Shown here: piece by piece, positions 8,929-46,426 of the stretch
How positions within the stretch are numbered: the stretch's first letter is position 1
How the letters are laid out: each line of letters opens with the position of its first letter
NCBI RefSeq assembly: GCF_963675165.1
Contig: NC_087388.1
Coordinates: 3,973,047-4,037,046, forward strand
Source: Halichondria panicea
Taxonomy: Eukaryota > Porifera > Demospongiae > Suberitida > Halichondriidae
Direction: 5' to 3'
DNA: 64,000 bases
The notes under the pieces: model-generated
Told to the model about the DNA's origin: nothing
The model's database searches: none
Seen by the model: the letters and a program-made list of their open reading frames with translations, nothing else
Made by a program: the position numbers and the translations under genes

Positions 8929-8930
8929 AT

Positions 8931-12867: not shown

Positions 12868-13887
12868 TTAACAAGTAAAGATATCGTAGCAATTACTCCA
12901 AAATATTTCAAAAGCAACACTAAAACAAGTAAAGGTGAAAAAACCTACTTGTGCACAACACTCGTCGTGTGTTTCACAGAAGTTGTGAACGCAGCAATCA
13001 CCACACACAAAACTCCAACAAAAGCAATCTGCGCCACACATCCCAAAACAAGCATTGGTGTATTTTTGATAGGGACACTGCCCTGCCCCACATTGAGCTC
13101 CGTTTGCCGGACAATTCACAGTCCTTCTCTGTCGCAGATTACTACTCTTACTTGAATGACTAGGCATTGTTGGAACAGTCTCTACACTAGCTTTTGCATT
13201 CGATAGCTTTAGAGCAAACACATAGAACCTCATTACAGCTTGAGAGTCCTCTCCTTTAATTCCAGTATTACCTAGGGCCAGGGCAGCTTCGATAATTAGT
13301 TTTGCTTGAGGACTCATTGAAAGGTTTTTCAGAGAATCATGGGATTTTTTGGCAACTGTCTTATTGTCCATCTTTTCAAGCATTTCAGTGGTCATATTCT
13401 CATAACCCATCATAATGGATTCCATTGTGTCTATGTTGCTTTCGGGAATAACGTATTCGTCATTAGGACCCTGTTTATTTTTCATCAAGAGAAAGGCTGT
13501 GCTATTCATTTCCATCATGATCATGGGTGATTCCCTCAGATGCACCATCATTATAATCAACTCACCATCTGCCGTGCTCACTATGTAGTAAAAGTGGGTG
13601 CCGTTCACTGTACTCTGGAAATGAATACCACCTTGGGCACCATAATACTCCCCTTCAAGCTTGTTATTTGAAACGAACACATTTTGAAGTCCAGAGACTT
13701 GTTGCTGCTGTGTGGTAGAGATTCCCACACCAATACTAATGGTCAGCACAGCTGTAATGAGCAGAGCTACACAGGTTAATATCAATACGGCCACGAGCAC
13801 TGGAGAGAGTTTGGGTTTCTTTGACTGAGGGGTGATCTCACGGTTAGGCTCGAAGTAGTGCTGGTGCTTGACCGAAGAAGAATCCAT
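12868..13887 (-). CDS. Type II membrane precursor with furin-like site and Cys-rich C-terminal domain
   Basis: An uninterrupted frame of 339 residues. The N-terminus is cytosolic-like and basic, with one transmembrane helix at about residues 29-54. A lumenal/extracellular region with several N-glycosylation sequons follows. At 252-255 there is RQRR, a furin-type cleavage site, and after it a compact domain with about 19 cysteines. That domain contains FGMCGADCFCW, CGDCC and CETHDECC. The HDECC motif resembles the Cys-His-Asp helix of phospholipase A2-like folds, but no calcium-loop motif is evident, so enzyme activity is not claimed. The layout (membrane anchor, folded stem, furin site, small Cys-rich product) suggests release of a disulfide-rich peptide. 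The gene lies between the two duplicated loci on the opposite strand and has no duplicate here. Its start ATG at 13887 fits the transmembrane topology. Confidence 0.82.
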   Translation of the reverse strand: MDSSSVKHQHYFEPNREITPQSKKPKLSPVLVAVLILTCVALLITAVLTISIGVGISTTQQQQVSGLQNVFVSNNKLEGEYYGAQGGIHFQSTVNGTHFYYIVSTADGELIIMMVHLRESPMIMMEMNSTAFLLMKNKQGPNDEYVIPESNIDTMESIMMGYENMTTEMLEKMDNKTVAKKSHDSLKNLSMSPQAKLIIEAALALGNTGIKGEDSQAVMRFYVFALKLSNAKASVETVPTMPSHSSKSSNLRQRRTVNCPANGAQCGAGQCPYQKYTNACFGMCGADCFCWSFVCGDCCVHNFCETHDECCAQVGFFTFTCFSVAFEIFWSNCYDIFTC

Positions 13888-14085
13888 AGAATTAATCTAG
13901 ATCTAGATATAAACACGTCTATACCAAAAGTCTAAATCTGCAAAACTAGCTAGACCTAGAGCCTAGAGATGAACTTATTATTTATAGGTTGTTATTCTAG
14001 TTGTTATACACATCTTTTAACTTACTGTACAAACATGGGGCATGTGTATTGGGTGGGAGGATCTGGAACACAGCACAACAATTAA

Positions 14086-14097
14086 TGCGCATGCGCA
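14086..14097. promoter_or_regulatory. NRF1-like palindromic site upstream of kinase copy 2
   Basis: TGCGCATGCGCA lies about 117 bp before the copy 2 start codon, in the same flanking context (AATTAATGCGCATGCGCAATCC) as copy 1. The spacing to the ATG differs because copy 2 carries extra sequence here. Confidence 0.5.
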
Positions 14098-14213
14098 ATC
14101 CAAAGGATCACATTCTCCCTAGATCTAGTTGGGTGTGGCCCGAGTTTTCAGGCCATGCCCAACTACTTTCACCTACTTTTGACTTCTTGATCTTCTATGA
14201 CATCGACAGCAAC

Positions 14214-16048
14214 ATGGCTGCACTTACTAAAGACTTGGATGAGCTAGTGGTGCTGGTAGAAGGCCTTGACCTGGAGGACAACAGAGCTGGTTCTGGTGCT
14301 TATGGGGTTGTCTTCAGAGTGACTGTAAAGGGGAGAGAATGTATTGCCAAGAAGCTCCACAGCATCTTGCTCAAAGCTGGCGACTACTATCCAGTGGACC
14401 AGAGAGATTCCATTATTGAAAAGTTCCGCAATGAGTGTCGTATTCTAAGTGGTCTGGAGCATCCGAACGTTGTAACATTTATTGGAATCCACTACGGTCG
14501 AGACAAGAACGATCTTAGTCTGATCATGGAACGTCTGCACACTGACGTAGCTGCTTTTGTACAATCCCACCCTCAAACACCCATCGCTGAGAGAATTCAT
14601 ATTTTGTGGGATGTGTCAAAGGGCCTTCAATATCTCCACTCGCTGACCCCTCCCCTCATACACCGTGACCTTACTGCTCCCAACATCCTGCTCACTGATG
14701 ACCTGACTGCCAAGATAGGAGACTTGGGAGTATCCAGATACGTGGACCTTGACGCATTGTCGAGGCTGCTAACGAAAGCTCCTGGAAACGTATACTACAT
14801 GTCTCCCGAAGCAAGAGACGAGAATCCGCAGTACACTGTCAAGCTGGACATTTTCTCCTTCGGTACTCTCATTATCCACACATTCATTGGCCAAGTTCCT
14901 GCCTTACATGATGTACCCTACAATCAGCAAGCTCTAAAGCTCAGTGAAGAGGGAAAGATCGAGTTAACGAAAAGAAGAAGGGCTATTCAACAGATGACCA
15001 CAGACCACTGCATGTATCCTCTCATTGTCCGCTGTCTCCATGACAAACCTGCTCCCAGACCAACTGCAGACGAAATGCACCAGTCACTGCAAGAGTTGTG
15101 TACGAGGTACCCAACCAAGGTAATTCTATTCTTCGAGTGTTTGCTTTTTTAATATTAAAATTTCAATAGGCGTTTCAAAAGGTGGAGATTAAGGCTGCTC
15201 TAAGGCAGCGTCTAAAGGAAGGAGATACGTGGTAAGTATACTTATAGTAATTATGGATTGTTAAATAAAAGTTAAAATAATTTCTCTAAACTGTACAGGT
15301 ACCTGGTTGGCTTCCAGTGGATGGAGCAATGGAAGAGGTATGTAGGATACAACGAACAAGCCTCTCCTGGTGATGGATCTGAAGCTGAAGTTGAAAATCC
15401 TGGAAAGATTAACAACGACGCTCTCCTGACAGGTCAGGGATTGTATTAACTAACATACACATGTAGCTCTATAATGTTGTGATCCCTAATATAGGTGGGA
15501 TTCTACGAGAGGATCTCAAGGATATGAATGACTATTTCCTCATTCCAGAGTCTGCCTGGAACAAACTGGTCTCTTGGTATGGCATCTGCTCAAATTCGAA
15601 CACCATTACAAGGTACATGTAGATAATTACTTACATGTACATGTACCCGTAGGATTCTTGTTTCTCTTCATCAAAACACAAACACTTTTTACATGCTTGC
15701 AGGAAAGTTGTTCAGGGGGGTCATGGCTTGATGGTGGAAATCTACCTCCAAGTTCTCACCTTGAGTGTTTACCCTAACCTAAAAGAGATCAAGTGTAGAA
15801 AGTTCAGCCGTTCAGACACTATTGGTGAGTACAGTAGAACCTCACTAATCCGAATAGAGCCAGACCTCATTGGATTATTAACGGATGTCATTAATTGATT
15901 ATTAACGAAGACACTTTTGTAAATGTATTATGATATTACTGTGGCCAGAAGGGCTCTCTTCATTTTCTTTGCAGTGGCCATTGTTTGAGCAGTTTATTAT
16001 GCCTCGGTGCGCATGCGCAAGCGAGGTGTACGGTAGTGTGTTTGTGTG

Positions 16049-27636: not shown

Positions 27637-30600
27637 CTATAGGGGGGGTGTTGCCACATCATAAGGCTTTATATGAGTAACTTCATCACGTATAAATCTA
27701 ACAGTCATTGGTTGTAATTTCTTGTCCATACTAGGAAAAAATCTAATTTCTAAGGAAATTTTCTGTAGTGGCGTTGGTGGTGGGCCAGATGGTGGTGTTA
27801 AGAGCATTGCCTTTGGATGAGCAACAAGCTCCAATTTCTTTTTCTTCTTCTTTTTCTTCTTCTTTTTCTTCTTCTTTTTGGACTTTTTCTTTGTCTTAAT
27901 TTCGTCAAGCTTTGTATCATTGCCATATGCTGTTTGAACTGTTGGTTCTAGTATTTCGCTCTGGAAGGTATCCCTCTGCTGTAAATCAAGGTTGTTGTCC
28001 ATTTTACCCACTTGACCATGATCTGCTGACCCAAATCCTGCTTTACGGTCTTGTTGGCCTTGATCACAGTTAGAAACCCTTGCTTGTTTGTTATTTTCTG
28101 ATACACTAGTCATTGAAAGGTCTGTGATTGTCTGAGTTGAAGCTTTTTTGACAGCACTAGATAAAGCAATTTTGCTGGCTTTAGCAATACCTTTGAGGCT
28201 GCGTTTCACTGTATAATGCACTGCCATTCTAAGTTTCTCATGCAATTGCTGATGAATAAATCGTAATAAACAATCTTCAATTTCTGTGGCTTTGCGTTCA
28301 ATGAGGTTTGCGTCAATATCTTCAGCTTGACGGACATACTCATGTAAGTTGAAGTCTCCTTTGAACAAATCAAGCAGAGCAACCGTGGCTCCTCCTAATT
28401 TTACGCCTGCATTTACCACAGAGATAGCCTTGTTTGCATAATAGGCCACCTTTGCACCTTTGCTAAGCAAACGTACAGTTGTGGAATTACTATTTCCTAG
28501 ATTTTCAGCAATACGTTTGTAGTTAAATTGCAACGAAGACACAACCTGTGATCGTATTAAATCAAATTCAGCTGGTAGTAAGGTATTCATACCTAAAGAA
28601 GTCCTCATATTGCTAACAATCCTCTGACATTTGCTGTGAAATTCATCATCACTGTTCACTTGCTGGGCTAGATTCTTTAATCGGGAGTGAAGTCCTTCCC
28701 TACACTTGGATATGAGACGTTTCTCAATTGATTCGATTGTAGCATGCACAACACGTTCCTGAATTTCTTCTAAAACTACATCTGAGATATAAGTGGTGGC
28801 AGCATAAAATACAAACTTTTTGGTTGCTCCAGCTGTAGCTTTAATGAACACCGAGAAAGGAGTTGCAGATCCTAACTTTGAAACAATCTTCACAGGACTA
28901 GCAAGAGCACTAATTCCACCAGTTGCAATAGTCAGAGCTAAGCTGATAGATTTGTGTATGGCATAGTCTTTCCAAGTGAATGTTCCAGTTAATCCAGCCA
29001 TAGTGGCGTACACCATGTCATTTACTCCCTCTGCAATAAGCGCACTACCAATGCTGGCAGTAACACCAAGACTTATCAAGGCAGCTCCACCAATTACCTG
29101 TGCCATACCAAGTGTAGCACAGGCAAATGCATTCCAATCCCAATATCCTTTGTCAGCTTGTTCAATTGACAGAAATTGATCCATATGCCATGCAGCAAAG
29201 AAGGCCAGCTCCTCGGGAATTTCTTCTGGACGATCTGGAAGGTCATTAAAGTCCACAAAGTCCACTTGCATTTTTCTTTCAAATTTCCGAATTTCCCCTT
29301 GTAAACGTCCAAGTATTCGTACTATAAAATCAACTCGGAAAGGTGAGTATTCCTTTCCTAGCGATGTAGCAATAGCATGCTGAAGTTCTTTACCAACACC
29401 ATACTTGTGCTGAACAAGCTGGCCAGATTTCAGAATGTCCTGCTCTTGTAAAAAAGCATGCATTTTCTTAGCTTCAAATGCTTTGTTTCCATATGGTAAC
29501 ATGTACTCCAGCAAAAAACAATCTTCATTTTGCTGACAATACTCAAAGAAACACAATAGGTAGCTGCGCAGTGTTTGCTTGTGTCCTTTATTGTACATGT
29601 AACAGTTTTCATACTTTCCAAGCTCAAGGCTTTCCATCATAATAACGCTATCTTGCTTAAGTAATCCTTTCTTGGTGCTTGTGCACAGCTTTTTTCCTTC
29701 CAAGTAAACAAGAAACTCCTTATACGTATTTGTACGTTCATCATCCCAAGGTAAGTCAATTCGATCAGTTTCAAAGGAGCTCTTAAATTCATTCCATATG
29801 TTGAGACTATCATCTTCCAATGTTGCTGAATCTACCTTGCTAGCAAAAATTACTCGCACGTTTACTGAGGTCTCCAATAATGGACTTATGATGTCCCACA
29901 ATTCATCAGAACTGTTCACAAGACCAATCAAATCACTTTCGTTGATAACGGGTTTATTTAAGACTAGTTTGATTAATGCGACAGATACTTGCTCATCAAC
30001 CTTTTCGAGTATAAGTTTCTTTATAACAGTTTCGTTTTTCCAATATTTTCTAACTTTGTTGTGACAAATGAAGCCTAAGGTGACCAACTTGTGGTAAATT
30101 GTTTTGGACTGCTCTTCTGATATCTTCTCCTCCGTAAGTGCTGATTCATTCACAAACGAATGCTCATCAATTATATTGCCCAACAGTAATTCCACCGTAT
30201 GAAGATGTAAGCCAAGGACTTTCATCTTCTCTTCAACTTGATGAGTATAGCAGTTTTCATCATCATGAATATACTGGCTAACATCAATCATTTCAATAAG
30301 CTTTGTGCCTACCTCAGCATTTACCATCAGTGTTTGCTTTAAGGACGTTAAATGAGTTCTAGCCTTTTTCAAGTAACGTCGAGCTTGTTTCATATTAGTT
30401 TTACTAGCATCAGGGTTAAGTTTGATGAAGCAATAACATGATGCCATTGCAGGAAGTCCAGTTAAATCACCACTTTTTTCTGCATGTTCAAAACAGGCTA
30501 GGGCTGTGGCATGTAAATGCTGACTTTTAATGTTGTTTCCACTAGGACTCTCAGTAATATCTCTGAGGAGAGCAATCCCTAATGTGACATAGCTCTCTGG

Positions 30601-33600
30601 ATGCTTAAAAAAGTTGGTATCATCTATTGAAGACGGTAGTGGATAGCCTTGAGCAGGGAAATCTTTGCTGAAGAGATTGATAACTAATTGCTTTTCACTT
30701 TCACAACTTACAGAATGAATCTGAGCATGCATTGAATCTAGCCAGTAGGCCCAATGATCAGTTACAACCCCAAGAAGAGCACTTATCGCAGCTTTACCAA
30801 CCTGCACGTTCATCAATGAAAAATTTTGAACTGCTACTGTAAATAAATGTCTGCATTTTTGAAACAAAAGATACAACTGTTCTTCTAATTCCAACCTAGG
30901 AAGACCATCACTTAGTAACACAGAAAGACGATTTGCTTCAGTCTTATTACGTTTTGCCTTTTCCAGTTCTACAAGGATTTCTGTTGCTGCTTCGAGAGTG
31001 TCAAATGTTTGAAATATTGATTTGTATTCTTGCTGATTGATTTGAATAATTAAGCATCCACTTCCTGCTTGCCCAGCTCGAGCCGCTCGCCCAAATGCTT
31101 GCTCTTCTATTCTTGTATTCTCTGGCAGGAATGTGAGGATTACATGTAGGCCTTTTGGGGCATCTTTATCACTGATTACAATGTCTGTTCCACGACCTCC
31201 TTTGTTTGTAGCTAAAACAATCTGACCAGGTTTTGCACCATGTTGGTGTTTGAATTTTTTTTCTACGTTGTCACCATCTCGAGCGTAGCTGATAATGTCT
31301 TTCTCACTGATGGCACCTTGAGATAACATGTAACGCTTAATACACTCCAAATGCTTTATGTTTTCACAGATAACCAAAACTGGCTGTTCACTTGCTCTGA
31401 TTGAGATTTCATCACAAATTTGAGCAGACCAATCTTGTTCACTCGTTGCAATTCGAGATTTACGTTGAGCATAGAGTTTCGGTTTGTTAGTTGGTAGCTC
31501 AACTGTAATTATACCGTACACTTTTTGAAGCAACTTCCGTGATGTAATAGATCCGATAGTTCCGGTCAGTCCAAATAGTTGCTTGCCATATTTCTGGAAA
31601 AATCTTTTATTAGAAATAAAAATAGCTTTAAGGCTTTCTGATGATATTGGACGCCGATATTTCAACTCGAGAAACTGAGAGAGACCATTGCTCCACTTCA
31701 TATTGTACTGTTCAATACCAGTTTGCTTGTCAATTGGAAATATCCTTTTCACTTCAGAATTTCCTTGCTTCTGATGATCAATAACAAACTGGTCATTGGC
31801 ATCCATAGTCATAGCAAGGTAGGCACTTTTCACCCAGCTTTCCATTTTTTTCTCACAAAACACTTTCAAGTAATCAGGAACTGGTATAGTATCATCCTTT
31901 ATAAGAGTGTTCATGTGCTTTGCTATCTCTATTAAGCGTGCGGATACATTTTCAACATAAGTAGATGAAACACTGATCATAGCAGACCAAATATGTAGGA
32001 ACAATGTTTCTAAATGTTTCAATGCCGGGCTATCATGAGAGAGATAAAGCATGTGCTGTGCTTTGTCTAGAAACATACTGTCTACTTCATCGACAATAAG
32101 ACAGTTTTTCTCTGGTTCAGAGTATCGATTTTTGAAGTTGACTTTCACACCAGGTTCACTCTCTTCCTGAAGAACGTCACGTTGAAAAGAACCAACATCA
32201 CCATAAACAATATGTACTTTGTAAGCTTGTTGATTAGTGTCATCATCATCTGTGCAATTAATAGCAGCTTTTAGTCCGAGTACTCTAAAAAAAGGCTGAC
32301 ACTTCTCCATCCCACTCTGAGCCAAGTCTCTATTGCTAGATACAACATCTACATTAAATCCCAGTAGAGCTTTAGCACCTGCTAACATTCCAACAATTAA
32401 TGTTTTTCCTTCTCCAGTTTTTACTTGCTGTAGAAGACCTTTATTTCTAGAATGCAGAAAGAGAAGCAGTGATATCATTTGGGTGCTATATGGGATTTGA
32501 ACTTGCTGTACATCAGAGCCAGACACTGATGATAAAATCCAGGATTTAATTACGGAGGAAACAAATGGTACTCGATGCGTTTCTAGCCACTGCATTCTGT
32601 CTTCAATAGTTACATGCCTTTGCAGCAAACTGAAAAACTGTTTCAATTCCCTTTCAGTGGCATTAGGAATCATAGAACAATGTTCAAGATGCTGAAGTAC
32701 CCCTCTAGCCTCGTTCCTGATGACAGTAAGGTCACATATACCGAGTTCTGGGTCATCAGACTCAACTTGCAATTGATTGTGAATCAAATCAACTACATCG
32801 TCTGGATTTCTAGATAGGCATTTTCTAGCAGTAGTCATATTAAGCAAAGTTCTGATAGATCGAATCCATTGATTACCTGCAATATCATTCAATTGCTCAA
32901 GGCTGATTTGTTTATAGTAAAGGGCTTCAAAAACAGACATTAGTAGCTTGCTGTCCTTTGCATTACCTCGAGTATATTTGCTTCGTATTTTGTATAGCAG
33001 CAACATGAATTTTATGTGAGTCATTCCAGAATCTAATCGAACCCTGTTCATCATGTATATGGTTCTTTGTTTATCAATTGCCGTTAAGTCTTTCCACTGA
33101 TCAAGATACTGTTTGAAATGGATCATTTGAATTTCTTTTTCCCAACAAAAAATTGAATTCCTACAGAGAACTGAGAAAGCAGCAGGACATGGCTCTATGT
33201 ATGGAAGTAAGTCAACAATCGCACATAGCTGTTCAAATGAGAAGGAATTGCATAAAGAACTAGCACTAGCACTAGCAGATGCATTGCTGACATCATTTAT
33301 AAATACATTGTACAGAATCTGAAGAAACTTCTGGTCCATAAGAAGCATTTTTGTGTGAAGATTATTGTCATTGTCATCAACATTATACTGGATCACACAC
33401 AATTCAAACAAATTGTACGCAAGCAGATGACTAAGCCACATATCACTAGAATACTCTTGTACGATGGATACAACCATTAGTACATCAGGTGATATTTTTA
33501 CTAATCGAACCATGTTAATTGTATGCTGGAAAGGATCAGGGCATTCAGAGTCTGATGTACTAAAGTTCTGTACCCTTACATTCAAATCATGCACAAAGGT

Positions 33601-34358
33601 ACGGGAAACTTCCACAAGCCCGATTAAGCTATCCCACTCAGCTGGATTCTCCAGAGCTTGGTCTGCTCTGCTGCACAAGCAGCAAGTAAATATATTCAAC
33701 AAAATGTTTTTGTTCGTATGACAGGAGAAAAGATCGCTTAATACAACATTTTGGAGAAGCTGAAAAATATTATACAGTTCATCTTTGAACCATGTTAAAA
33801 TTAGTTGAGATAAATATACTCCGAAGCTGCCAGTCGTGAAAGCAGTTTCACTTGAATACTGGCCAACAAAATTCCACAGCGATTCGTTGGTTTTCATCAC
33901 TCGTAGCAAAGCCTCATTATTTTCACTATCTTCCTTTACATAACGCTCAAGATCACAGGCTTTTAGATGATCCGACACCATAAAAATGATCTGCTCATCA
34001 ACTATGTCACCTGGTAATAGTTGCAGTCCCCTATAAATGGTCTGATACCAGTTGAACCTGATGGATCCAATTTCACAATCTAATACATTTTCAACGTATA
34101 GTCTGTTTTTCGAATACACAAAAGCCCTGCAAATTGAAACAACTTCTTTTGTTGTGAAGGTCTTCATTACTAGTACGTTTTCCCAAAAACAAAATGAGGA
34201 ACTGACTTCCCTGATGTGAGGTAACTGTATATCTTTTGCGGCACTTTTTTGGTTCTTCATAACCAATTGAAAGTACAAGAAATGTTCAATAGCAAGAAGA
34301 TGAACATTTTCGATTAACACTGAACTACAGTGTGGGAAAAGCATGCTTTCATTGCTTC
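27637..34358 (-). CDS. Giant SecA-like ATPase, C-terminal part (SecA-type motor)
   Basis: An uninterrupted frame of about 2,235 codons from ATG 34344 (open from 34358). Residues about 640-1100 form a divergent SecA motor: Walker A QVKTGEGKT near 640, Walker B VDEVDSM near 752, LTGTIGS near 927, NKGGRGTDIVI near 1050 and the arginine-finger-like AFGRAARAGQAGSG near 1087. Bacterial SecA has the same order (RTGEGKT, VDEVDSI, TGTA, GRGTDI, RGRSGRQG). SecA drives proteins through SecYEG; here the substrate is unknown. The motor is embedded in long helical sequence. A hydrophobic glycine/alanine-rich segment with WKDYAIHKSISLA lies at about 1745-1820. A run of about 15 lysines sits near residue 2160. 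No signal peptide. The frame overlaps the upstream part by about 45 bases with a -1 shift, so both are probably one gene. Confidence 0.85.
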
Positions 34359-37300
34359 ATGCATAGTCCGAACATTTTTGTGATCTGAACCATCTATGAG
34401 TAGATTCACACACTCTTGTACAAAGCCTCGTCGCACATGTTGTACAAAATTGATAATATTTTGACGACAACATACTGTCGGACAAAGCTGTACAGCAGAT
34501 TTCAAGCTGTTATTGAGAATTTGAGTGGGAAGAAAAGTGTCATACAGTTCCTGATAAAAATTTAAGAGTTCTGAAATTGGCTGAAGAACGTATAAAAGAG
34601 TGACATCATCATTTCTCTCAGAACTGTCATTCAGTAACAATCGGTAAGTGCATTCATCAGAAGAATAAGATAGCAGTGACCGCAATGATAAATCATCTCT
34701 ATATAATGAAACTGAGTAATGATGTTTCAACACTTCTTTTTCACCACATTTGGTCACAGTTTTAACTATGGCTGGTTGATCAGGATACTTAACAACAAAC
34801 ACTCCCGCAGTTCCTTCTATTTCATTGGTAAACTGATCTTCGGAAATTTCAAGATATGTGGCACGTCTCAAATGTTTTAAAGCTTCACTTGATGTAGAAT
34901 TGCAGAGCACAACAAGAATACTTTGCCCAAAGGAGTCATCATCCTCGAGAACAGTGACATCTGAAATCTTTACTGCACATGTTTTAATATCAATCGATAA
35001 CATACTCAACGAACACGCTTGTGTTTTAGAGAGAAGCAACTGGCTACCAAAATGAACTCTATACGATACACTATACTCGGAATCAAACTTGAACATAGAT
35101 ACAAGATAAGCTTTTTGTTCTTTAGTCAGAGAAAATTGTCCATTTTTCATAACAAAAGGGTCAAGTTTAGAGTCCAACACCTCTTTGATTTGTTCAATTT
35201 CTGATAGTTCAACATCTCGCCAGTGGCAGCTTGAACAATCAGATGAATAATACAGCTTCCATTTCGCTCCATTAATGACTAAAATCAAAGTATATGGTTT
35301 GATGTTGGCTAAAGGCTCTTCAGACGAAATCAAAAACTCATAATTTGGTTCAAGGCGTTCCATCTCGACACTAAGCTGAAATTGTGAGCTAGAAAGAAAA
35401 CATTGTCCAAAATGTGTCACAATAGTTTGCATACATTCACCATTCAGCTTTTTCAGCCCCATTATGTCTGTAGTCAATACTACCGGCAGTTTATCAGTGT
35501 CAGCTTTGTACAAAAGTGAATACATTTGCAAATCTTTGCAGGACTTAAACACTTCAAAATTATTTCGGGAGTCTATTACTAAAACTAAAAAGTTGTTGAA
35601 TTTTCGTAATTCAATTTTTAGCTCACTGAGGTTCTCAAGAACATCGTTTTCTGACGTATTTTTGAATAGTTTCAGCTTTAGCTCTAACTTTTCAAGAAGT
35701 TTAAAGTCTATAAACTCCTTCCATTTTATTAATGCCATAAGAGGACATGACATCGGATAAGCCAGAAAAGTTTCATGAAATTCTGCTATTTTGCTTATAT
35801 GACTTTTTATGAACTGATTTCTGGATTCAATTTTACTTTGACGGTCTTCATCATTGGATAAGATGTGAAAGATACTATTGTAGTACGAGTACATCCCTTC
35901 AAGAAATTTTGTAACAGATATTAAAAGCTTCGATGGGTCTTGGGCACTGGAACGATAAGGATTTGGCTTCAATGTGATTTTTAATATATAGTTCAATATA
36001 TGAATAAGGGCTTCCATTTGTGGTTTGGCAATGTTAATTGAAGGCTGACGAAGAGCTTTAATGAAGTCAACAGTTTCAAGTCCAATCTTACTCATCAAGG
36101 ATTTAAAATCATCCACGTACATAAGCTCATGAAACTCCCCCAAAACATCACTAACCTCGCTATAAGTAAAGGATAACATTTCTTGAAAGTTCTTTGCAAA
36201 ATCACCTGAAAGTTTTCCTGAAATTGCAATCAAAGCAGGTAGCACTGCTTTGAGACTTGGAAAAGCACAAAAAGCAGTGTAGGCTTCTGGGAAAGAAAGG
36301 TTGATTTTCTCTGTGGCTAACGATTGTTCCTGGGTTGTCAACACAATGCCCAGCAATTTTGCTACTGTCTCGATGATGCTGCTAAGCATATGTTCTACAG
36401 CTGTAGTATAGGTCATACTTTGTTTTTTATGCAACATCGTTTCGATGTAAGCCTTAAGGTGGCCATGAGTTTGGTTTTTGGTTCTGCCCTTTATGGCAAA
36501 CTTCTGAAGGATGGTCTCACTTTTTGTTGTGGAAATTACGATAATATGTTGGAATCTGGTTACCAGATTAAACTTTCCACATAAAAAGTGGAAGGCATGA
36601 ATTAAACTCTCTTCAAATGACTGTAAGAACAACTTAAACTCATGTTTGGCTAAGTAGTCAAGATAGTCAGGTGTCTTCAGCATTTCTATATGACAGTCTT
36701 GAAAAGTGACCATGACATGCAATAGTAAATCAAGATGTTGCTCTCTATTGTAGTTGCCGACAGCATCAAAGAAAGCGTTAATTGCAGTTTCATCTTCATA
36801 TGTTAATGGGAGCATGCTTTTAATCCAATTTAAATCGAACACTGTAAGCAGTAATCCTTCACTGTTAAGGAAATCCTGCATGCGGAGTAGTGCAGAAAGA
36901 GATTTGCTGCCTACGAGAGTGTCTAAGCACACAGCATACATCTTCTGAACGAGATCTATTTCTTCAGTACTACAATTATCGCAAACATTTTTATATGATT
37001 TCCGAATGAGAATAATAAGTTTGAGTTGCTTGAGGCAAAGCAACTGCTCAGTAGTGGCAGGAAGTTCAATGTCTTCATCGATATTTCCACAAATCCAGTT
37101 AACAATCTCCTCATAGGAGATCATGGTATCTCTATTCAGTGGAGTAAGTTGATTTTTTTCCATAGTTAGAACCTCCAGTGATGAATTTACTGTCATTTTA
37201 TGGGTACCACTAGGGTGACAAAAGATCCAAGTGTTGGTTTGAAGGTTTTGTGTAATAAGAAATCGAGTATTAACAGTATCTGCAGTCGTATCACATCTAA

Positions 37301-39740
37301 CAAAATAGATAATCTCCTCAGACAAATTCAGGGTAGCTTGTAATTTCTCAATTTCATCATCAAAACAGTCATCAGTTAGCAGGGACTCAAGTAAGTAGTT
37401 TTCAAGATGGATATTTTTGTGCTCAGCTCTCTGTTTGAGTGATGACACGTTGACTGATAGTGATTCCGTTTCTATACTTTCACTGCCTAGATAATTATCA
37501 GCTGATGGATACGTGCTGTATGTGACTTCATTTGTGTAATCTTTCATCAGGCTTATTTGTACTTTTGTGCTTTGCTTAGCTTCACACGTTACCGATACCT
37601 TCATATTTTCAGACAATTTGTGAAACTGAGACATCCATATCACACATTTAGATCTGTTTGCTTCACTACGAGTTATGGACATAAATTCTGTGTCGTGAAT
37701 TTCGCCTACTTTTCGAGCAAAAGCTCCTAAGAAACGGTTGTGTGATTTGCAATTCCAATGTTGTAAAGATTGACGACACTGCTCATGGAATGCATAAAAG
37801 CAAGCCTGTTTGTCAACAGCTTTATTTTCATTAGCAAGGGAATTATTTACTTTGATTTTGGCAGTTTCTCCATCCCTATTACATCCCCTATTAACAAAGT
37901 CAGGGTGATCGTTTTTTTTCACTTGCATTGGTATTTTATCCCTAGCAGGTTTTTCATATTGCTCCACATTGGGATGAGGGATGGATCTATCATAGAGGAT
38001 TTCATCATGGCAGAGTTCTCCACTATAATTGTCAATACTATCTGTTGGACGTGTACTTGTAACAAGTGTTACTACCCTAGCCCAGAATAATAAAGATTTC
38101 CCATACCGCCCATAATCCATACCATGTCTGGTGTGTTTTCCTCCTTTACCTGGATCCCCTGGCTGGCCAGGTTTGCTATCTTTAACTTGATTTTGAGTTA
38201 CGTGACAGTTCCATTCATTATCAATATCGAGAATTTCAATTTTGCCACTGACACCACTCTTTCCAGCAGCTCCACCCATGCCAGCATCCCCACCATGACC
38301 GCTGTCAACACCACGAGTTCCAAAGCTGATTACAACAGAACTATTAGTTTGAAGCCGCCCTGCTTCAAATTCAGGGGCATTATTTCCATCAATACCTTTG
38401 ACAGTAGGTGTCCAACCGGCCCCACCGTCACCGCCATTTTGACCATCTCCCCCTGGGCTACCACTTGCCAACAAATTGAAGTCACTGATACATATATTGG
38501 ATGCAACTAATAGAACATGCCCTCCTGCATTTCCGTATTGACCATTTTCACCATCTACTCCAGGTTTACCGTCTTTAGCTGTCTCAGTGCCATCTTCACC
38601 TGGTCTAGCTTTAATAGGGCGATCACTGAATTCAATACACTTTCCTTCTGTGTTGATGGTAATACATTGTCTCGTACCTTCTAAGTAAACACTGCTTGCA
38701 GTTTTATTAAGTACCTCAGAAGTTGTTTGAGATACCTTTTTGCAAATGAGTTTTAGGGCAATACAAACAACTGACACACCATGATGGTAGACATCACTAT
38801 CAGCGTAGAGTACAGCGTCAGCACATAGCCTGATTTCATCCCCACTTTGGAGTGTTTTCGTTGGTTTGTTTCGAGAAATCCATTCATCAAAAGCAGAAAG
38901 AGCACTGCTTGATAACCCAGCCACCATTTTTATTGTGTAGACAGTTGACCCATCTCTGCTTTGTGAAAAGATACTGTATGGTAGAACTATTTGCAACAGC
39001 AGCTTAACAAGACGAGTCAGGTTTTCATGCAAATACGAAAAATGATTTTCTTTTGACTTTAAAATCTGTTCAAGTACAGTGGTATCTACCTGCACTTGTG
39101 TTTGTGTGCTGATAACTTCGAGTAGTTTCTGGTAGAGTTTCACTTCTTCTTGGTATACATCTAATCGATTTTCTTCAGCTTCTTTATTGCACTCTAGGCT
39201 GCAGCTACTGTGACGATCTTGCAGCTTTTGAATAATGCTAATTTTCTCACAGCATTCAACAGAGACACCTTCTTCGAGTTCTTTGAAGAGCATATTCAGT
39301 GCACACTTGAATGAACAGCAATCAGTACTTAGAAATTCAAATGAAATTATTCGCTGGTACAATTTGCATTCAAACTGTTCAAAAAGATGCATAGTTTTGG
39401 CACGAGTGTCAATAAGGCAAAAACAAAATGTTTCCAGCTCATCTAGTATTGATTTACGAATCTGCTGTCGAGCCTCTAAATCCTTACACGTTTTGTCAAA
39501 GAGGTCAGAAAATGAACTTTTTAATTGACCTTCGATTTCCTCAGTCACAGTGCTGGACACTGTCCAACAAGACAAAATATCTTGAAATTGTTCAAGCGTA
39601 TCGCATTCCTTAAGGCTCTCAAATTCGTTGAGGATAATGGAATTCACAATGTCTGAAGTATCACCAGGAGTTCCAAATATTTGTTCTTCTGAAAAATGAC
39701 TGAATTTATTCTCTAACAGCAGGCGAAAATACTTGAAGAA
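34314..39740 (-). CDS. Giant SecA-like gene, central part with collagen-like glycine-rich segment
   Basis: An open frame of about 1,808 codons that starts after a probable 86-bp intron (39741-39826) and stops at 34314. The first 350 codons are helical and cysteine-containing. Then a glycine-rich segment (nucleotides about 38600-38150) has GxxG and GxP repeats such as GKPGVDGENGQYGNAGG and GGDAGMGGAAGKSG, interrupted by beta-like stretches. It resembles collagen-like or PGRS-type repeats but is not a strict Gly-X-Y helix. The remaining 1,300 codons look helical, with no domain I recognise. No signal peptide or membrane segment is evident. Adding one T to the TTTT run near 34333-34336 would carry this frame straight into the SecA part, so the stop is suspect. 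Confidence 0.75.
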   Translation of the reverse strand, partial: FFKYFRLLLENKFSHFSEEQIFGTPGDTSDIVNSIILNEFESLKECDTLEQFQDILSCWTVSSTVTEEIEGQLKSSFSDLFDKTCKDLEARQQIRKSILDELETFCFCLIDTRAKTMHLFEQFECKLYQRIISFEFLSTDCCSFKCALNMLFKELEEGVSVECCEKISIIQKLQDRHSSCSLECNKEAEENRLDVYQEEVKLYQKLLEVISTQTQVQVDTTVLEQILKSKENHFSYLHENLTRLVKLLLQIVLPYSIFSQSRDGSTVYTIKMVAGLSSSALSAFDEWISRNKPTKTLQSGDEIRLCADAVLYADSDVYHHGVSVVCIALKLICKKVSQTTSEVLNKTASSVYLEGTRQCITINTEGKCIEFSDRPIKARPGEDGTETAKDGKPGVDGENGQYGNAGGHVLLVASNICISDFNLLASGSPGGDGQNGGDGGAGWTPTVKGIDGNNAPEFEAGRLQTNSSVVISFGTRGVDSGHGGDAGMGGAAGKSGVSGKIEILDIDNEWNCHVTQNQVKDSKPGQPGDPGKGGKHTRHGMDYGRYGKSLLFWARVVTLVTSTRPTDSIDNYSGELCHDEILYDRSIPHPNVEQYEKPARDKIPMQVKKNDHPDFVNRGCNRDGETAKIKVNNSLANENKAVDKQACFYAFHEQCRQSLQHWNCKSHNRFLGAFARKVGEIHDTEFMSITRSEANRSKCVIWMSQFHKLSENMKVSVTCEAKQSTKVQISLMKDYTNEVTYSTYPSADNYLGSESIETESLSVNVSSLKQRAEHKNIHLENYLLESLLTDDCFDDEIEKLQATLNLSEEIIYFVRCDTTADTVNTRFLITQNLQTNTWIFCHPSGTHKMTVNSSLEVLTMEKNQLTPLNRDTMISYEEIVNWICGNIDEDIELPATTEQLLCLKQLKLIILIRKSYKNVCDNCSTEEIDLVQKMYAVCLDTLVGSKSLSALLRMQDFLNSEGLLLTVFDLNWIKSMLPLTYEDETAINAFFDAVGNYNREQHLDLLLHVMVTFQDCHIEMLKTPDYLDYLAKHEFKLFLQSFEESLIHAFHFLCGKFNLVTRFQHIIVISTTKSETILQKFAIKGRTKNQTHGHLKAYIETMLHKKQSMTYTTAVEHMLSSIIETVAKLLGIVLTTQEQSLATEKINLSFPEAYTAFCAFPSLKAVLPALIAISGKLSGDFAKNFQEMLSFTYSEVSDVLGEFHELMYVDDFKSLMSKIGLETVDFIKALRQPSINIAKPQMEALIHILNYILKITLKPNPYRSSAQDPSKLLISVTKFLEGMYSYYNSIFHILSNDEDRQSKIESRNQFIKSHISKIAEFHETFLAYPMSCPLMALIKWKEFIDFKLLEKLELKLKLFKNTSENDVLENLSELKIELRKFNNFLVLVIDSRNNFEVFKSCKDLQMYSLLYKADTDKLPVVLTTDIMGLKKLNGECMQTIVTHFGQCFLSSSQFQLSVEMERLEPNYEFLISSEEPLANIKPYTLILVINGAKWKLYYSSDCSSCHWRDVELSEIEQIKEVLDSKLDPFVMKNGQFSLTKEQKAYLVSMFKFDSEYSVSYRVHFGSQLLLSKTQACSLSMLSIDIKTCAVKISDVTVLEDDDSFGQSILVVLCNSTSSEALKHLRRATYLEISEDQFTNEIEGTAGVFVVKYPDQPAIVKTVTKCGEKEVLKHHYSVSLYRDDLSLRSLLSYSSDECTYRLLLNDSSERNDDVTLLYVLQPISELLNFYQELYDTFLPTQILNNSLKSAVQLCPTVCCRQNIINFVQHVRRGFVQECVNLLIDGSDHKNVRTMHEAMKACFSHTVVQC

Positions 39741-39826
39741 CTTAACGGAGGGGGTGTTAGAAAAATCATCACAATTTGATCATCCAATGACCTAGAGACA
39801 TTTGTTTCAGCTGTTTGATATTCTAC

Positions 39827-42800
39827 GTCCGGTACATTCGAATTAATAGATATTTCAAACAACTTTGGATTAATTTTAAAGTTGCTTGTTTCAGTTTCAA
39901 TAGCAGTTTCAGAAGATATTTCAGTGACATTATCAGGACCACTGCTCAAATATGTTTCAATGCATTGTTCCAAAAAAACTCTCTATAGGAATATACAGTA
40001 GTACAGTAACATGAGTGTCTATAATTATAGCATTATACAGTGAAACCTGCTGTAATAGCAACCGATAAACTGGTGGTCACACCCACAAGTCCCAATAGTA
40101 ACTAGTGAGTGACCCCAAATAGTCTAACCCAAAAACAAATTTCGCTGAGTCTTAAATTTGCTGTTTTCCCTAGTAGGTGGGGGCTCATTTTGAGCATGTG
40201 CATTAAAATGGGTGAGGTTATAAGGAGAGAAAGAACTAGAGCGCTGAAGTGCTAACCCTCGGCTGTTGACAAAAATAATAGAACAAAGGCGTGTTCAATC
40301 AAGCAAAGCACAAATTCTAGCTTTCCTTGTCTATGGATTCTGGTAAAGGATCACTTCAGCGGCAAATAATTATGTAGATCTAGCTCGAATAAAGGCCGGA
40401 TGTAAGCTAACCTGCAAGTTAGCCTTTTATTCGACAACTAGGCCGGCTTTAATATCAAAATCTGCCACTATTAAAACTATAATATAACTTAGCTATAATT
40501 ATCACAGGTAATATAGAAGCACAAGCATGAAAAGGCGCTCCTCTAGCTGGGTCATTCCACATCAATTCAACAACAACAAAAAGTGGCCGTCTCAGATTTC
40601 AGTGGACGACACTTGGCACATAAGTAGTATTATTATTGTAAGATATCATGTGCATCATTTCCGTTTCCAATCCCTCTAAAGTCTTCTATATACTTAGTTT
40701 CGAATTCCAGCCGGTTCCCCTTACGTAATGCATTTTTGTTGGCTTCCCAGCCCCTCCCCTCTCTGCAGTAGCATGGGAGGAAGAGAACCGTCCGGTGACT
40801 CTGGGCGTTCTATTCTGTCAGCCAGGAATGATCATCTTGTTACCACGAGGATAATAACCCACAATTTAAATGTTATATTTTTGAAAGCCTATCTTACATT
40901 CTTGTGGGTAAGGCTCCAATGAATATACTCTACCAACATTCCGTCCGACGTTCTCTCCCTCCCACACCACTAATGAGAACCGGCTGAAATTCGAGACTAC
41001 TCTACTCTTCTACTCTATCATGACTCGTTACATACACAGTCATGTATGTATATTAATATCACAAAAAGTCCTATGCTTGCATAATTATTGTTACAATGCA
41101 TTATTGACTTGACTACCGTATAGCGGGTAATTTTCAGGGGACAAAATATTCGTGGTTCAGCAATATTGAGACATTTCGTGCGTAATATTTTCGTGGTAGC
41201 TGCTTGCACTGCAGGTAAAGGTAGGCAAGGTCGCTTCATTCGTGGGTAAAATATTCGTGGTCAGACCTCCAACCACGAAAACCACGAATATTTTGCCCCA
41301 CGAAAATTACACGCTATACGGTATACCCTCACTTTTGAGTAGGCTAATTTGCCTTGAGAATACGCCCACCAGGAAGTGACAGTGAGCAGTTGCCAAGAAA
41401 AGTTTATTATGTATAAGCTGGTTACCGTAAGACCTCGATTTAAGGCGACCCTCCAAATATGCGACACCCAGGAGTTTCAGCAATTTTCTGACCTCTAAAA
41501 GTGCGACAGCTGCACTGACAATTATTTTTTAATGTCGCGTTCTAAATAGAGGTAAATGTAGCCACTCCCTAGCCTCGACTGTAGCCCACTGGAAAATCAG
41601 TGTTTTTAAGCGGCCTGAAATCGAGGCAAGTAGACTCTGTAAAGTTACCTCCAATTAGATGCGACCCTCTAAATATGCGACACCAGGACTTCAATATAGT
41701 TTTTCAACCTCCAAAAGTGCGACCTCTGGCTTCGTAATTATTAAAAAGTGTCGCTTTAAATCGAGATCTTACGGTAGCTCAGATATAATATTATAGCTAG
41801 ATCCAATACTTACTTCTATTTGCAAGTATAAGAGACGGAGACAAAGACAATCTTCTCTGAATCTCTGTTGAAGACTCTGACAGTGACAAGGAACAACCTT
41901 TTGATGCAGAATTTTGACTCTTTATACCTAGCTACTTTACCCATGCATTACTATTGTTATAATTATATTGATGTATTCATTGTATTTCAAGAGCTGGAGG
42001 GCCTCAGATGCAGACAGAAAAGACTCAGTTTCTTAATGAGTGGGCTTAATTTCAAGGCGAAACTACTGTTTTCGAAATTAAGCCCATCCCACCTGTAGCT
42101 ATAGCTTTGTAGCATGCAATTAGGGTGGGCGTAATCTTGGTAGAGTACGGTAAGGCCATGCAAAGTCAATTTGTAGTTTCTCCTTAAATTAAAGGCACTA
42201 AAAGAAAAGAAAAGGATAAATTTGTATAGTTTTTTGGTCATGAATATAATTATGACTAAATTAATAGGTAAAAATTATGCACTTCCGCTTATTGCGGAAG
42301 TTAGGGGGGTGTTTTTAATTAAAATTCTATGAATATCATTATCATTAATATATATCAAATGCCTCAATCCGCTTGCTATTTTAGGAATACAGTAGACTCT
42401 CGTTAATCCGGCCACCCTTGGGACCATGCAGCTTGGCCGGAATAGCGAGGTGGCCGTACTTCAGATAATTAGCCGCGGCTTAAAAACGACCTTACCTCGA
42501 ATATAATCACTGATTTGCGGTTCTTGTCTCGAGGATAATGAAAGATAATGAATCATTCTGCTCTCTATTTAAGTGTAATCCACTAAACCACACCCAAAAC
42601 ATCATATCCAGCCGTAATACACATATAAAATTACATTGAAAACGTTATTTGGGACAGCCAGCACTGGCCGGTAAACGGAATAGCGAGTGGCCGTACTTCA
42701 GGGTGAGTTTTGTACAGTAAACATAGAGGTAGCATTCCGTGCCAAGCCAAATGGCCGGTATATCGAGGTGGCCGTACTTCAGAGAGCCGGAATAGCGAGA

Positions 42801-45800
42801 GTCTACTGTAATAGCCTGAGAAACTACAAATTGACTTTGCTTGGCCTAATACAAGCTGTCTGACCACAAGCCACAGTACATAATTATGGCAGTTATACCA
42901 GTACCACTTAACTATACATGCACGAAGTGAGTGGCAAACCTGTGTGATTAAGTGTTACGGTGTAGGCTATTTAGCTATAAAATATATGTGACTCAAATAT
43001 AATATCATCGCTGTGGTTCCTACTCATACAGGTCACTTGAAGTCGGCCCTAAGTGGACAACTACAACTATAAGCAGGTTTCACTGTATATAATTTTAGTT
43101 AACACAAACAGACTTTCATAACATGCTCATGATTTCGTACCTCCTCATCTTCAACAAGACTCAAGCCATTCTCTTCGAGAAGATTTTCCTATAAAAAGTA
43201 AGTGCTTGCATAAGACTAACAGTATACGTTAGCTAATTCACAGTCACAGTCGCGAGCACCATTACAATATTCAACCATTTGTAATATACTACACTGGGCA
43301 AACGAAGCCTAGTTGGGCGTGGCCCACCCTGGACGCTCACGTATGGTTGGCACCACTGCAATGTTATAGGTTTTGTTCCTGTTGCAGAAATTTTGCAGCC
43401 CAATCAGATTGCAGCGTTCAAGTGTTGAAGGCATGGCTTATTAATGAACGAGTCAGTAACTTAGTAATTCTCTTTCAAATCAAAATGCAACAATAGTAGA
43501 CAAGCCAGCTTGACCCAGGAACACACCAGGTCAGTCAGAGCTAGTAATTGGCCCTTGTAGTAGAAAATGACTTGGGCCTTAGCTAGTGGCATGCAAAATT
43601 GACTCGATTATACGCCCACCCATAATGAGCATGCGCAGTTAGAGTAATTGGCCCTTGTATAGTAGATAATGACTCGGGCCTTAGCTAGTGGCATGAAAAA
43701 TTGACTCGATTACTGTAATAACGTCGTTAAAATTAAACATGTGTGTGTTCCAGCTCAACGGACCATCAGCGTTATAGGCTTCTAGCCACATTGTCTTGGA
43801 TTTTGATTCGTGGATTTGCCGCTTTATCGAGCTATATATGACTATGGATGCCAATGACCAGCTGATGTGCTCTACTATACAGTTTGTGTTACATAATAGC
43901 GGCTTATGCCAATAAGCCTTTGATAATAGTAGAAGCCACATGCACATGTACAATACACTAACTATGAATATAATTTTCAAAACAGTATGCGGTTAGCAGT
44001 TGCAACAGCTCATGAATATCATTATGCAGGAAATATTAGTGCAAGAGAGCACATACATGCGGAATGCTAAAAGCTACAAAGGTGCCAAGTATAGGATATA
44101 CCACACCTAAGAGGAGGATATGCACCCATATATCCTCCGCTACCGTGGTTACTCCGAGGCAGAGCCGAGGGGTATGTAACCACGGTAGCGGAGGATATAT
44201 AGGGTGCATATCCTCCGAATAGGTGTGGCATATCTGACTTATACCACGTGACCGCAGCACTATAAAAGGACCTCCCCCTAGCAACAATTCAATCACGATG
44301 CAGACTGCAAAAAAGAACGAGACTATGCCGAATTTTGCAGCCGTCAAAGAGCTAGTTGAGCAACATGTTGACTCCTACAGATGCTCAAGAGCTTCCTTGG
44401 TCCAAGCGTTGACCATTCGACGTCCCTTACTGGAGTTGCAAGCTCTTCTTGGATAAAATGTATCTAAACCGCGCCCATGGACCCATGGAAGCTTAGCCAT
44501 CTTGTTGAAGAGCACCTTCCGTGTTTCTGCCGTCGCTTTGAGTCTTAGTACCGTCAAGCATGGCTCTTTTCTCTTTGCTTACTTTCTTGAACAAATGAAA
44601 AAACTAAAAAACAACTTGAAAAACTGTGCATGTCTGGGGCTGTATGCTAATATTCTATATATCCTACAGCTGTTGATCAATGAGATCAATTTGTGGTGAC
44701 GTAAGTGTGGTATAATCTTAGTTATAGACACTAAGTTGATAAGATCTACATGGGAAGTACATGGGAAAAGTGCCTCAGAGCAGGTATACTATGGGACTTA
44801 GTATACCTACAACTTACTTAGTATACCTAGTATCCCGTTAGAAGCCCTCCACCACTTACGCTTGGGATACTAAATCAGTGCCTTTGGGCTTCTAAATCCC
44901 TAGACACCTCCAAAACAGTGTCTATTATTTAATGACTATTGATCAGATATATAGCATTATTATGCCTCGGGGCATAGCCGCAGGATGTATACAGTTAAAG
45001 CTGACCATGAATGTGTTTGCATGTAATAACACAACATACCTTTTTGTCTAGGTACCAAATTTTTTGTTGTAGAATCCATTTGTTACTCTCATCCATAGCT
45101 TCTAAAACTCCTTCTGAATCCCTCCTTCGAATAGATAGCATTAATTGTGAATTTTGAGAATCTAAACTCCATTCTGTTACATGAACTGAGGAGCCAGTAG
45201 ATTCCGAGTCATTAGAATGATCAGTGGCACTATAATACTCAAAGTCATCGTCACTGTCATCTATACATGTGCATGAGAACAACAAAAACTATAAAACGTG
45301 TATAACTGTGAGGCCACCCCCTTTTTGCCTGCGAAAAGGGACTGGTATATACACGAGTGATAAACTTTAGCCTCAATTACAGACCGCCCATATTTCTGAT
45401 AATATTTTTCAAGGGCCAATATTTCACCAATAAAGCCACGAAAATTTCAGCACAAAAATGCATGTTCAAGGCCATGCACTCCAAGTGATACTCTGGTTTC
45501 TGGTCTGGAAGTTTGCATGTGGGCGGGAGGCTTTTGTCATTATGTCATTGTTTGTTCTACCTTTAACTTTATGTGTTTTGCAAATGAATAACATGGACCA
45601 TTGTGCGGACTGCGTAGTGAGATAGAAATCCAAGATTAAAACTGATGCAGGTGGTGGACCCAGAAACCAGAGTATCTATAGAGTATCACTTGGAGTGGCC
45701 CAATATACAAATCCGCAAAAAAATTGCTAAAAAAATTCTATGTGAAATGCATAAAAATTAATGGCCAATTTGCGAAATTTTTTTGACCCTTGAAAATTAC

Positions 45801-46426
45801 TCGCTGCTATACGGTAGTATAAGCACGTGAGCATTTGTGCTGTACACATTTGTGCTGTACACATTTTTCTGGTTGCGTGAGATATAGATAGCTTACTATT
45901 TATGCACCTATCAATGCAAACCCTACCCCCCCCCCTCCCAGGATAGGGTGCACGTGGGCTGGGATAAATTTGCTTCCCATAATTATATATATAGGGTGGG
46001 GCTTTTGTAAGTCTGTATGCTATACTAAGCAGCTACAAGTCAGTATAATTATCATAATTATGGATTGTCAAATCCCGTGGTTTGGGAGGGGTATTGTAGT
46101 GAAAAATACCCCTCCTGGGGAGGGGAGTTTACAACTCCCCAGTGACAAATCCCCACCCTATCCCGGGAGAGATGGGGGTGGAGATTTGCATTGATAGGTG
46201 TTGCAATAATACCAAAAAAGGCATGGCCTGGGTGGCCTAGTATATATGACTGTATAGATTGATGGAATCAACTGGATATAGCTTACACCAACACCATTCC
46301 GGCCGAGACTGTCATTAATAGATCTACATGCATGTATTCATAGTCATAGATAATTTACCACTTACTTTTAGCTCCATCTAGGCTACGCTGTTCATTCCCT
46401 GAAAACCATGATATGATTCTATTCAT
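39827..46426 (-). CDS. 5' coding exons of the giant SecA-like gene
   Basis: Four small exons join in frame with canonical sites: 46366-46426 (ATG at 46426, MNRIISWFSGNEQRSL), 45040-45260 (acidic, DSDDDFEYYS, 73 codons), 43141-43188 (ENLLEENGLSLVEDEE) and 39827-39982 (RVFLEQCIETYL). Phases match at each junction (61 nt, 221 nt, 48 nt, 156 nt), which is the main support. The last junction uses a GTAGAA donor and an acceptor preceded by CTAAC and a pyrimidine tract; it restores the frame of the large downstream exon. The encoded 162 residues are acidic and probably unstructured. Whether a noncoding first exon lies further upstream cannot be told. Confidence 0.65.
41114..41323. mobile_element. 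MITE with CCGTATAGCG ends (family A)
   Basis: TACCGTATAGCGGGTAATTTTC to the mirrored end GAAAATTACACGCTATACGGTA, in an intron of the SecA-like gene. Internal ATATTCGTGG repeats define a subfamily shared with 47593 and 52877. Confidence 0.85.
41423..41776. mobile_element. TA-flanked inverted-repeat element, CCGTAAGACCTCGATTTA ends
   Basis: Starts TACCGTAAGACCTCGATTTA and ends TAAATCGAGATCTTACGGTA. The interior repeats a GCGACCCTCCAAATATGCGACA motif in direct orientation. Confidence 0.8.
42388..42808. mobile_element. TA-flanked inverted-repeat element, CAGTAGACTCTCG ends
   Basis: Starts TACAGTAGACTCTCGTTAATCC and ends GAATAGCGAGAGTCTACTGTA, with repeated GGCCGGAATAGCGAGGTGGCCG segments inside. 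A relative without a clear right end is at 48573-48920. Confidence 0.8.
44095..44234. repeat. Near-perfect foldback, arms of about 57 bp
   Basis: The left arm (44095-44151, containing GGAGGATATGCACCC) and the right arm (44176-44234, containing GGGTGCATATCCTCC) are inverted copies around a loop of about 24 bases. Weaker pairing extends outward on both sides. It lies in the intron between the second and third coding exons of the SecA-like gene. Confidence 0.8.
45470..45700. mobile_element. Inverted-repeat element with CCAAGTGATACTCTGG ends
   Basis: Left GGCCATGCACTCCAAGTGAT and right ATCACTTGGAGTGGCC are mirrored, as are the adjacent CTCTGGTTTCTGG segments. It sits inside an older sequence with CCCTTGAAAATT-type ends, so it looks nested. 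Confidence 0.65.

Follow-up and report, generated by a model that had tools for sequence, protein, structure and literature searches.

A giant SecA-motor gene of the sponge Halichondria panicea and its probable kinship with toxin-type SecA-motor proteins

Giant secA genes of eukaryotic type were reported from insects and Wolbachia in 2013, with a eukaryote-to-Wolbachia transfer inferred (PMC3639933), and such genes are also described in phage WO (PMC5062602; PMC9203015). The available text of a survey of polymorphic toxins mentions SecA-like domains once, in Amoebophilus effectors (Zhang et al. 2012, PMC3482391), and they are likewise noted in giant actinobacterial toxins (PMC8195603, available sections); the accessible parts of a study of the Bodo saltans endosymbiont describe polymorphic toxins and treat SecA only as a Sec component (PMC8163844), and in those of two further papers only ordinary SecA appears (PMC9111745, PMC11521996). 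We report that a 64,000-nucleotide stretch of the Halichondria panicea genome (contig NC_087388.1, positions 3,973,047 to 4,037,046; hereafter "the window") carries on its minus strand a giant gene encoding a SecA-type motor, that this is a nuclear gene of a eukaryotic genome, and that, judged from sequence comparisons, it very probably descends from a toxin-type family of SecA-motor proteins. Animal proteins built on a bacterial toxin scaffold have a precedent in the teneurins, receptors that go back to a bacterial YD-repeat toxin; their scaffold is unrelated and has no SecA motor.

The window gene very likely belongs to the family known from Wolbachia wBol1/wHa, phage WO and insects (PMC3639933, PMC5062602), whose giant SecA-domain genes are matched over their full length in Harpegnathos and mosquitoes; proteins of Harpegnathos and Anopheles are among the relatives listed, and the Wolbachia sequences were compared by description only. 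In the available text of those accounts there is no mention of the conserved hydrophobic block downstream of the motor (the C-block), of toxin tips, of an immunity gene or of a nesting of the eukaryotic motors among bacterial giants. Eukaryotic giant SecA genes were already known, and what seems to be new is their kinship with toxin-type bacterial giants; no account of SecA-motor polymorphic toxins was found in the literature searched, which covered few subscription journals. This kinship joins animal "SecA" genes, giant genes of endosymbionts and plasmids, and polymorphic toxins, a link absent from that literature. It adds to the toxins a class equipped with a protein-translocating motor of its own and a conserved, undescribed hydrophobic block, and gives a natural setting in which to test the use of bacterial toxin machinery by animals.

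In the window the gene is split over two open reading frames (ORFs), P0002 and P0001. Listed in the direction of transcription, with T1 and T2 denoting two paralogs and P0003 a relative, its features are:

45040..45260, minus strand: inferred 5' coding exon, start uncertain; 30% identity over 40 residues to the T1 exon (L012 8350-8469)
39983..45039, minus strand: inferred spliceosomal intron, ~5 kb, phase 0, donor AAG/GTATGT, acceptor TATAG/AGA; positions derived by hand
39713..39779, minus strand: second change of frame, close to where the long coding exon begins at its 5' end; two frames overlap here
34314..39779, minus strand: ORF P0002, N-terminal half of the gene; 1,777 codons from GTG 39647, open stop-to-stop to 39779
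38115..38609, minus strand: Gly-rich, non-collagen module (P0002 residues 347-511), matched locally by insect, cnidarian and other family members
34341..34347, minus strand: frame break between P0002 and P0001; P0003, T1 and T2 are continuous here
27637..34344, minus strand: ORF P0001, 2,235 codons, encoding a helical region, then the SecA-type motor, helices of TPR-like kind, the C-block and the tail
31030..32520, minus strand: SecA-type motor (P0001 residues 609-1105) with NBD1/DEAD, intervening region, NBD2 and QAFGRxxR arginine motif, identified by Pfam, PDB sequences, AF2 model with fold comparison, and motifs
28804..29235, minus strand: C-block (P0001 residues 1704-1847), the conserved hydrophobic block
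27637..28803, minus strand: tail after the C-block; a part common to close relatives, then an end differing from most, including a run of Lys (~27835-27900) and a final 65 residues

The window motor is a member of the SecA motor superfamily with SecA-type nucleotide-binding domains NBD1 and NBD2. P0001 matched the Pfam families SecA_DEAD (PF07517; 7.2e-31, residues 609-931) and P-loop_SecA (PF21090; 2.6e-8), and the solved chains matched by its sequence were SecA in 24 of 24 cases (best 1.9e-33); these E-values exclude a chance resemblance. The motifs GEGKT, DEVD, LTGT, GRGTD and GRAARAG stand at residues 644, 752, 926, 1050 and 1085 (105, 209, 390, 508 and 573 for their versions in E. coli SecA), and all five are kept in 122 of 153 giant motors, the window copy among them. 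Moreover, the AF2 model of the window protein (pLDDT 86) aligns to B. subtilis SecA 83-772 and its 20 best fold matches are all SecA, spanning up to 570 residues compared with ~340 for helicase-type rivals; the fold comparison (VIA) covered mainly model residues 1-641. A reading made from the DNA letters alone (the sequence-only reading) had named a SecA motor on the strength of five ordered motifs, and the motifs, the profile search and the structure prediction all bear it out. That the motor moves polypeptide is, in our judgement, highly probable.

Canonical SecA and SecA2 have the same NBD1/NBD2 motor with its catalytic motifs, but the giant family forms a separate clade (100/100, six canonical rows), and the window motor sits in a giant protein with a QAFGR-type arginine motif and the extra C-block. 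It also differs from them in giving no match at E≤1 to the wing/scaffold family SecA_SW (PF07516) or to SEC-C (PF02810); the same result was obtained for the T1 stretch and for that of the relative L039, whereas the E. coli SecA control gave 2.1e-72 and 1e-10, respectively. A diverged scaffold may be present, since the fold comparison reaches SecA residue 772. The preprotein cross-linking domain (PF01043) had no match in the window or T1, the motif spacing leaves room for it, and it was weak in L039 (0.0044), L026 (0.0043), P0110 and P0016 and above cut-off in P0114. The giant is not the housekeeping SecA: all eight bacterial genomes examined encode a canonical SecA in addition to it (seven of 885-1,110 residues and one 515-residue fragment).

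The gene lies on the minus strand, and the plus-strand translation of 27637-34358 that had been suggested as search query is riddled with stops. Rather than the single gene frame of about 4,200 codons reported earlier, the window holds two ORFs in different reading frames, with P0002 preceding P0001; frames of that order are found in T1 and T2 (4,288 and 4,273 open codons). The junction is a frame break within ~7 bases and not an intron, because the P0003 match is continuous across it (residues 69-1857 on 39749-34347 and 1860-3271 on 34341-30094). An AG acceptor precedes the long exon in the window copy, T1 and T2, and a GT donor in phase 0 ends a similar 5' exon in the window copy and T1. The gene span had been drawn to 46426; upstream exon evidence stops at ~45260, and none was found in the 45.3-46.4 kb interval.

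In the 131 Mb assembly at least seven SecA_DEAD loci were found on five contigs (three on C12 and one each on C2, C1, C16 and C7); for COX1 the assembly gave no more than a match of 64 positions, interrupted by two TGA codons, on C1. T1 (~4,083-4,096 kb) and T2 (~4,111-4,123 kb) lie on the same contig as the window copy, 80-110 kb from it, and the C2 and C16 copies have more than 2,300 open codons each. The ratio of nonsynonymous to synonymous substitution (dN/dS) between T1 and T2 is ~0.15 for the motor, i.e. purifying selection, and ~0.66 for the tail, the fastest-diverging part; most likely the scaffold is kept in these two paralogs. A further copy at C7:3424250-3430000 runs across several frames and is apparently decayed. 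Given its two frame changes and the lack of a recognised tip, the window copy is probably decaying or error-carrying, the frame changes representing either decay or assembly errors. We put at about even the chance of a relic, with a pseudogene in the window and a family drifting towards loss in this genome, as the two frame changes of the window copy, the C7 copy split over several frames and the rapidly diverging tails would suggest; the long open frames of T1 and T2 (>4,270 codons) with their constrained motor, the still open C2 and C16 copies and a possible sequencing error at the window copy argue the other way.

The window protein has the signature of the giant SecA family, a QAFGR motor followed several hundred residues downstream by the C-block, and the C-block is an undescribed second hallmark of the family. 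Its profile matches 106 of 126 family proteins, all 14 bacterial or viral-collection loci (three weakly, two of these cut by the contig end) and all three plasmid loci. A transmembrane-like segment is present in the C-block in 117 of 120 cases compared with 26 of 540 windows elsewhere, and the portion inside the model (to residue 1815) forms three long helices; we judge it slightly more probable than not that the C-block is membrane-active. No PDB sequence matched it at E≤1, and Pfam gave scattered weak matches only. A search with the C-block alone returned eight proteins (five with SecA_DEAD, two with P-loop_SecA only and one rotifer protein without a listed Pfam family) and revealed no partner architecture free of the motor; the alignment is too variable to scan the whole collection.

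The QAFGR signature alignment identified at least 12 loci in 11 genome records of an 84,980-species set, a lower bound that rests on two peptide patterns; those genomes hold further giants. The hosts are Rickettsia endosymbionts, Orientia, other Rickettsiales and Parachlamydiales, together with metagenome-assembled genomes (MAGs) labelled Flavobacteriaceae, Bacteroidetes, Neisseriaceae, Gamma- and Alphaproteobacteria. Giant SecA was also found on two viral-collection contigs and on plasmids of Ca. Megaera polyxenophila (5,225 residues), Ca. Bandiella woodruffii and Legionella geestiana; a search of phage records gave 20 records, all below 60% identity. On a ciliate-endosymbiont plasmid (L069, CP113870.1 36608-57076) the 5,225-residue giant SecA is followed by a second "SecA-like" ORF. 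Matches below cut-off to a RickCE-like peptidase were seen in the C-terminal part of L069 and in the N-terminal part of L039, and P0016, a giant SecA near the window clade, has an ILEI domain (6.3e-19) at its N-terminus (residues 77-167).

The anatomy of some of these relatives is that of bacterial polymorphic toxins. L038 and L039 (~3,550 residues each) align over 3,422 positions at 92.6% identity and have different ends, so that a constant body carries differing C-terminal tips. The L039 tip is a WHH/Colicin-DNase nuclease and is directly followed by a SUKH-1 immunity-type gene (3.7e-23), a short ORF that repeats the pre-tip region with a new end (an orphan cassette) and a DUF6980 gene. Family members P0118 and P0116 have AHH and Ntox17 tips, respectively, and two members with motors inside the eukaryotic clade have nuclease tips (P0110, NS_2, 3.2e-11; P0114, 7.1e-8). 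The end of L032 matched a colicin E3-like RNase below cut-off (0.0013), and L070 carries LysM above cut-off as well as a GHSLGG motif that coincides with a weak match to a hydrolase (0.036). The giant family differs from known polymorphic toxins in being built on a SecA-type motor with a C-block. The "Neisseriaceae" contig carrying L032 is close to L038/L039; its label is doubtful, and the closeness could reflect recent transfer or mis-binning.

Eukaryotic members occur in insects, nematodes, molluscs, a cnidarian, an echinoderm, rotifers and a ciliate, with the family set comprising the best 120 of 1,171 proteins (from 7,998 candidates scored, 0.55-1.75 of query length). Rooted on canonical SecA, the motor tree places the eukaryotic motors as one clade nested among bacterial giants. 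It contains 55 of 72 rows, of which 10 are ungrouped; 17 were dropped, including the longest branch, L067, and near copies. The Gly-rich module was found in 57 of 81 members with enough N-terminus and in none of 11 bacterial, plasmid or viral-collection members. The Gly-rich segment, the hydrophobic Gly/Ala patch (which corresponds to the C-block) and the Lys run of the sequence-only reading are all present, and the label "collagen-like" holds for composition only: collagen was rejected, the longest G-X-X run being 7, with no Pfam collagen match at E≤0.1 and one weak SclB match in NCBIfam (0.0056). A permuted OTU-like module (H-aromatic-x ... C) was identified in C2 (residues 2009-2134), C16 (residues 1919-2044), P0051, P0056, P0077 and others. 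Its best fold match is EschOTU (PDB 6w9s), a circularly permuted OTU deubiquitinase according to the available text of PMC7396840, and it gave no Pfam OTU match. This module belongs to the C2 and C16 copies and not to the window copy, and none was seen in bacterial loci.

These data lead us to favour, with moderate confidence, an acquired toxin-type scaffold with a SecA motor, i.e. a self-contained delivery engine taken over by a eukaryote. In such a protein the SecA-type motor would clamp a polypeptide and ratchet it by ATP hydrolysis, the C-block would insert into or line a membrane, and the cargo would be the protein's own C-terminal tail, the last being a tentative assignment. A motor driving its own tail through a membrane block would be the simplest mechanism uniting motor, C-block and variable end, and delivery, membrane insertion and a role in conflict are all put forward here conditionally. 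Intracellular bacteria would be the source of the scaffold, the eukaryotic gains would be the Gly-rich N-terminal module and, in many copies, the permuted OTU-like (deubiquitinase-type) module, and the use would probably be conflict inside or beside the cell. The idea of a motor that was acquired, rebuilt and given a new job agrees with the nesting, the undetected wing/scaffold and SEC-C families, and the distribution of the Gly-rich module. For a role in defence or secretion the outcome is divided: some relatives are modular toxins, which gives the proposal a sharper form, but no toxin tip was seen in the host copies scanned. A bolder version, which we regard as unlikely, is that eukaryotes, above all animals, encode living polymorphic toxins in which a built-in SecA-type ATPase drives an exchangeable C-terminal effector through the membrane block, with tips still swapping in animal lineages and aimed at intracellular microbes or rival genomes.

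Several observations weigh against an acquired toxin scaffold. The close relatives of the window protein differ in their ends, with no tip identified in the window copy itself; a recognisable C-terminal toxin domain was not found, since no toxin family appeared in P0001 (Pfam) or, over the Pfam cut-off, in the tails of T1, T2 and the window copy or the scanned part of C2 (E≤1). The best Pfam match in these host tails was DUF445 in T1 (1.9e-5, 25.2 bits, cut-off 33.8), PHROGs gave weak matches only, and the NS_2 nuclease is absent from the host genome. The window copy carries two frame changes, and the tail divergence could, as far as the substitution ratio goes, reflect lost constraint. Among 10 bacterial or viral-collection tails scanned, six matched no family and two (L027 and L034) matched weakly, to non-toxin families; L026, a relative of P0118, lacks the AHH tip in the Pfam tail scan, and the complete toxin-immunity anatomy was seen at one locus, L039. 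In a set of 33 insect motors, 18 of them assigned to either of two tip classes, the test is suggestive only: tip exchange needs three changes on the motor tree, of which well-supported branches force one, and the tips are more clustered than in most shuffles. Finally, P0080 and P0055, which carry bacterial MAG labels and are among the ungrouped rows, fall inside the eukaryotic group. Because no tip was recognised in the host tails, we lowered our confidence in the acquired scaffold and in living toxins a little and raised that in domestication to a similar degree.

Domestication would mean an intracellular remodelling or defence factor in which the motor acts on foreign or damaged proteins by unfolding or moving them, the OTU-like module of some copies edits ubiquitin and the tail has a targeting or regulatory function. 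We consider this plausible, if short of probable. It agrees with the purifying selection on the T1/T2 motor, with Gly-rich and permuted OTU-like modules that were not seen in bacterial loci, with host copies scanned without a recognised toxin tip, and with the spread from insects to a ciliate; the nuclease tips of P0110 and P0114, whose motors lie inside the eukaryotic clade, and tails that diverge like those of toxin-type relatives are harder to reconcile with it.

Acquisition of the toxin-type scaffold from bacteria bears on the direction of transfer proposed in 2013, since the eukaryotic motors here lie within bacterial diversity. The opposite course, a eukaryotic origin with the giant gene later moving into Wolbachia and other endosymbionts, is improbable. 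It was inferred by Duplouy et al. 2013 (PMC3639933), in the available text of which the eukaryotic homologs stand apart from prokaryotic SecA, and it would account for the positions of P0055 (Rickettsiales) beside a bee sequence and P0080 (Legionellales) in the eukaryotic group. Against it, the eukaryotes nest among bacterial giants when more of these are included, and plasmid-borne and toxin-immunity forms exist outside eukaryotes. Later single transfers from animal to endosymbiont are likely. The "Rickettsiales" label of P0055, which adjoins the bee sequence in the tree, is itself doubtful, and recent transfer or mis-binning could underlie it. The phylogeny suggested in the sequence-only reading separated canonical SecA from the giants and, for the eukaryotic motors, gave a position among bacterial relatives.

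An ordinary DEAD/DEAH or RIG-I-like nucleic-acid helicase merely resembling SecA, a better match to which had been named as the result that would overturn the first proposal, is very improbable, as SecA profiles score much higher and both the solved chains and fold ranks 1-20 are SecA throughout. Endosymbiont contamination of the assembly, which the bacterial-type motor and very long open frames might suggest, can be dismissed as extremely improbable because the window copy and T1 have an intron in the same place and phase, the window contig measures 6.76 Mb and further copies lie on four contigs of 5.8-18 Mb.

Elsewhere in the window, with labels assigned by eye, two near-identical protein-kinase-like frames lie ~14 kb apart on the plus strand (165-1118 and 14001-15152), and a reverse-transcriptase-like frame followed by a GIY-YIG-like frame on the same strand (8907-10862) resembles a Penelope-like retroelement. 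On the minus strand, a Cys-rich frame (12868-13896) is hydrophobic along an N-terminal stretch and contains an HDECC motif like that of phospholipase A2, and a Tectonin/tachylectin-like lectin frame (60532-61308) has 443 relatives, of which those listed (120) carry PF19193.

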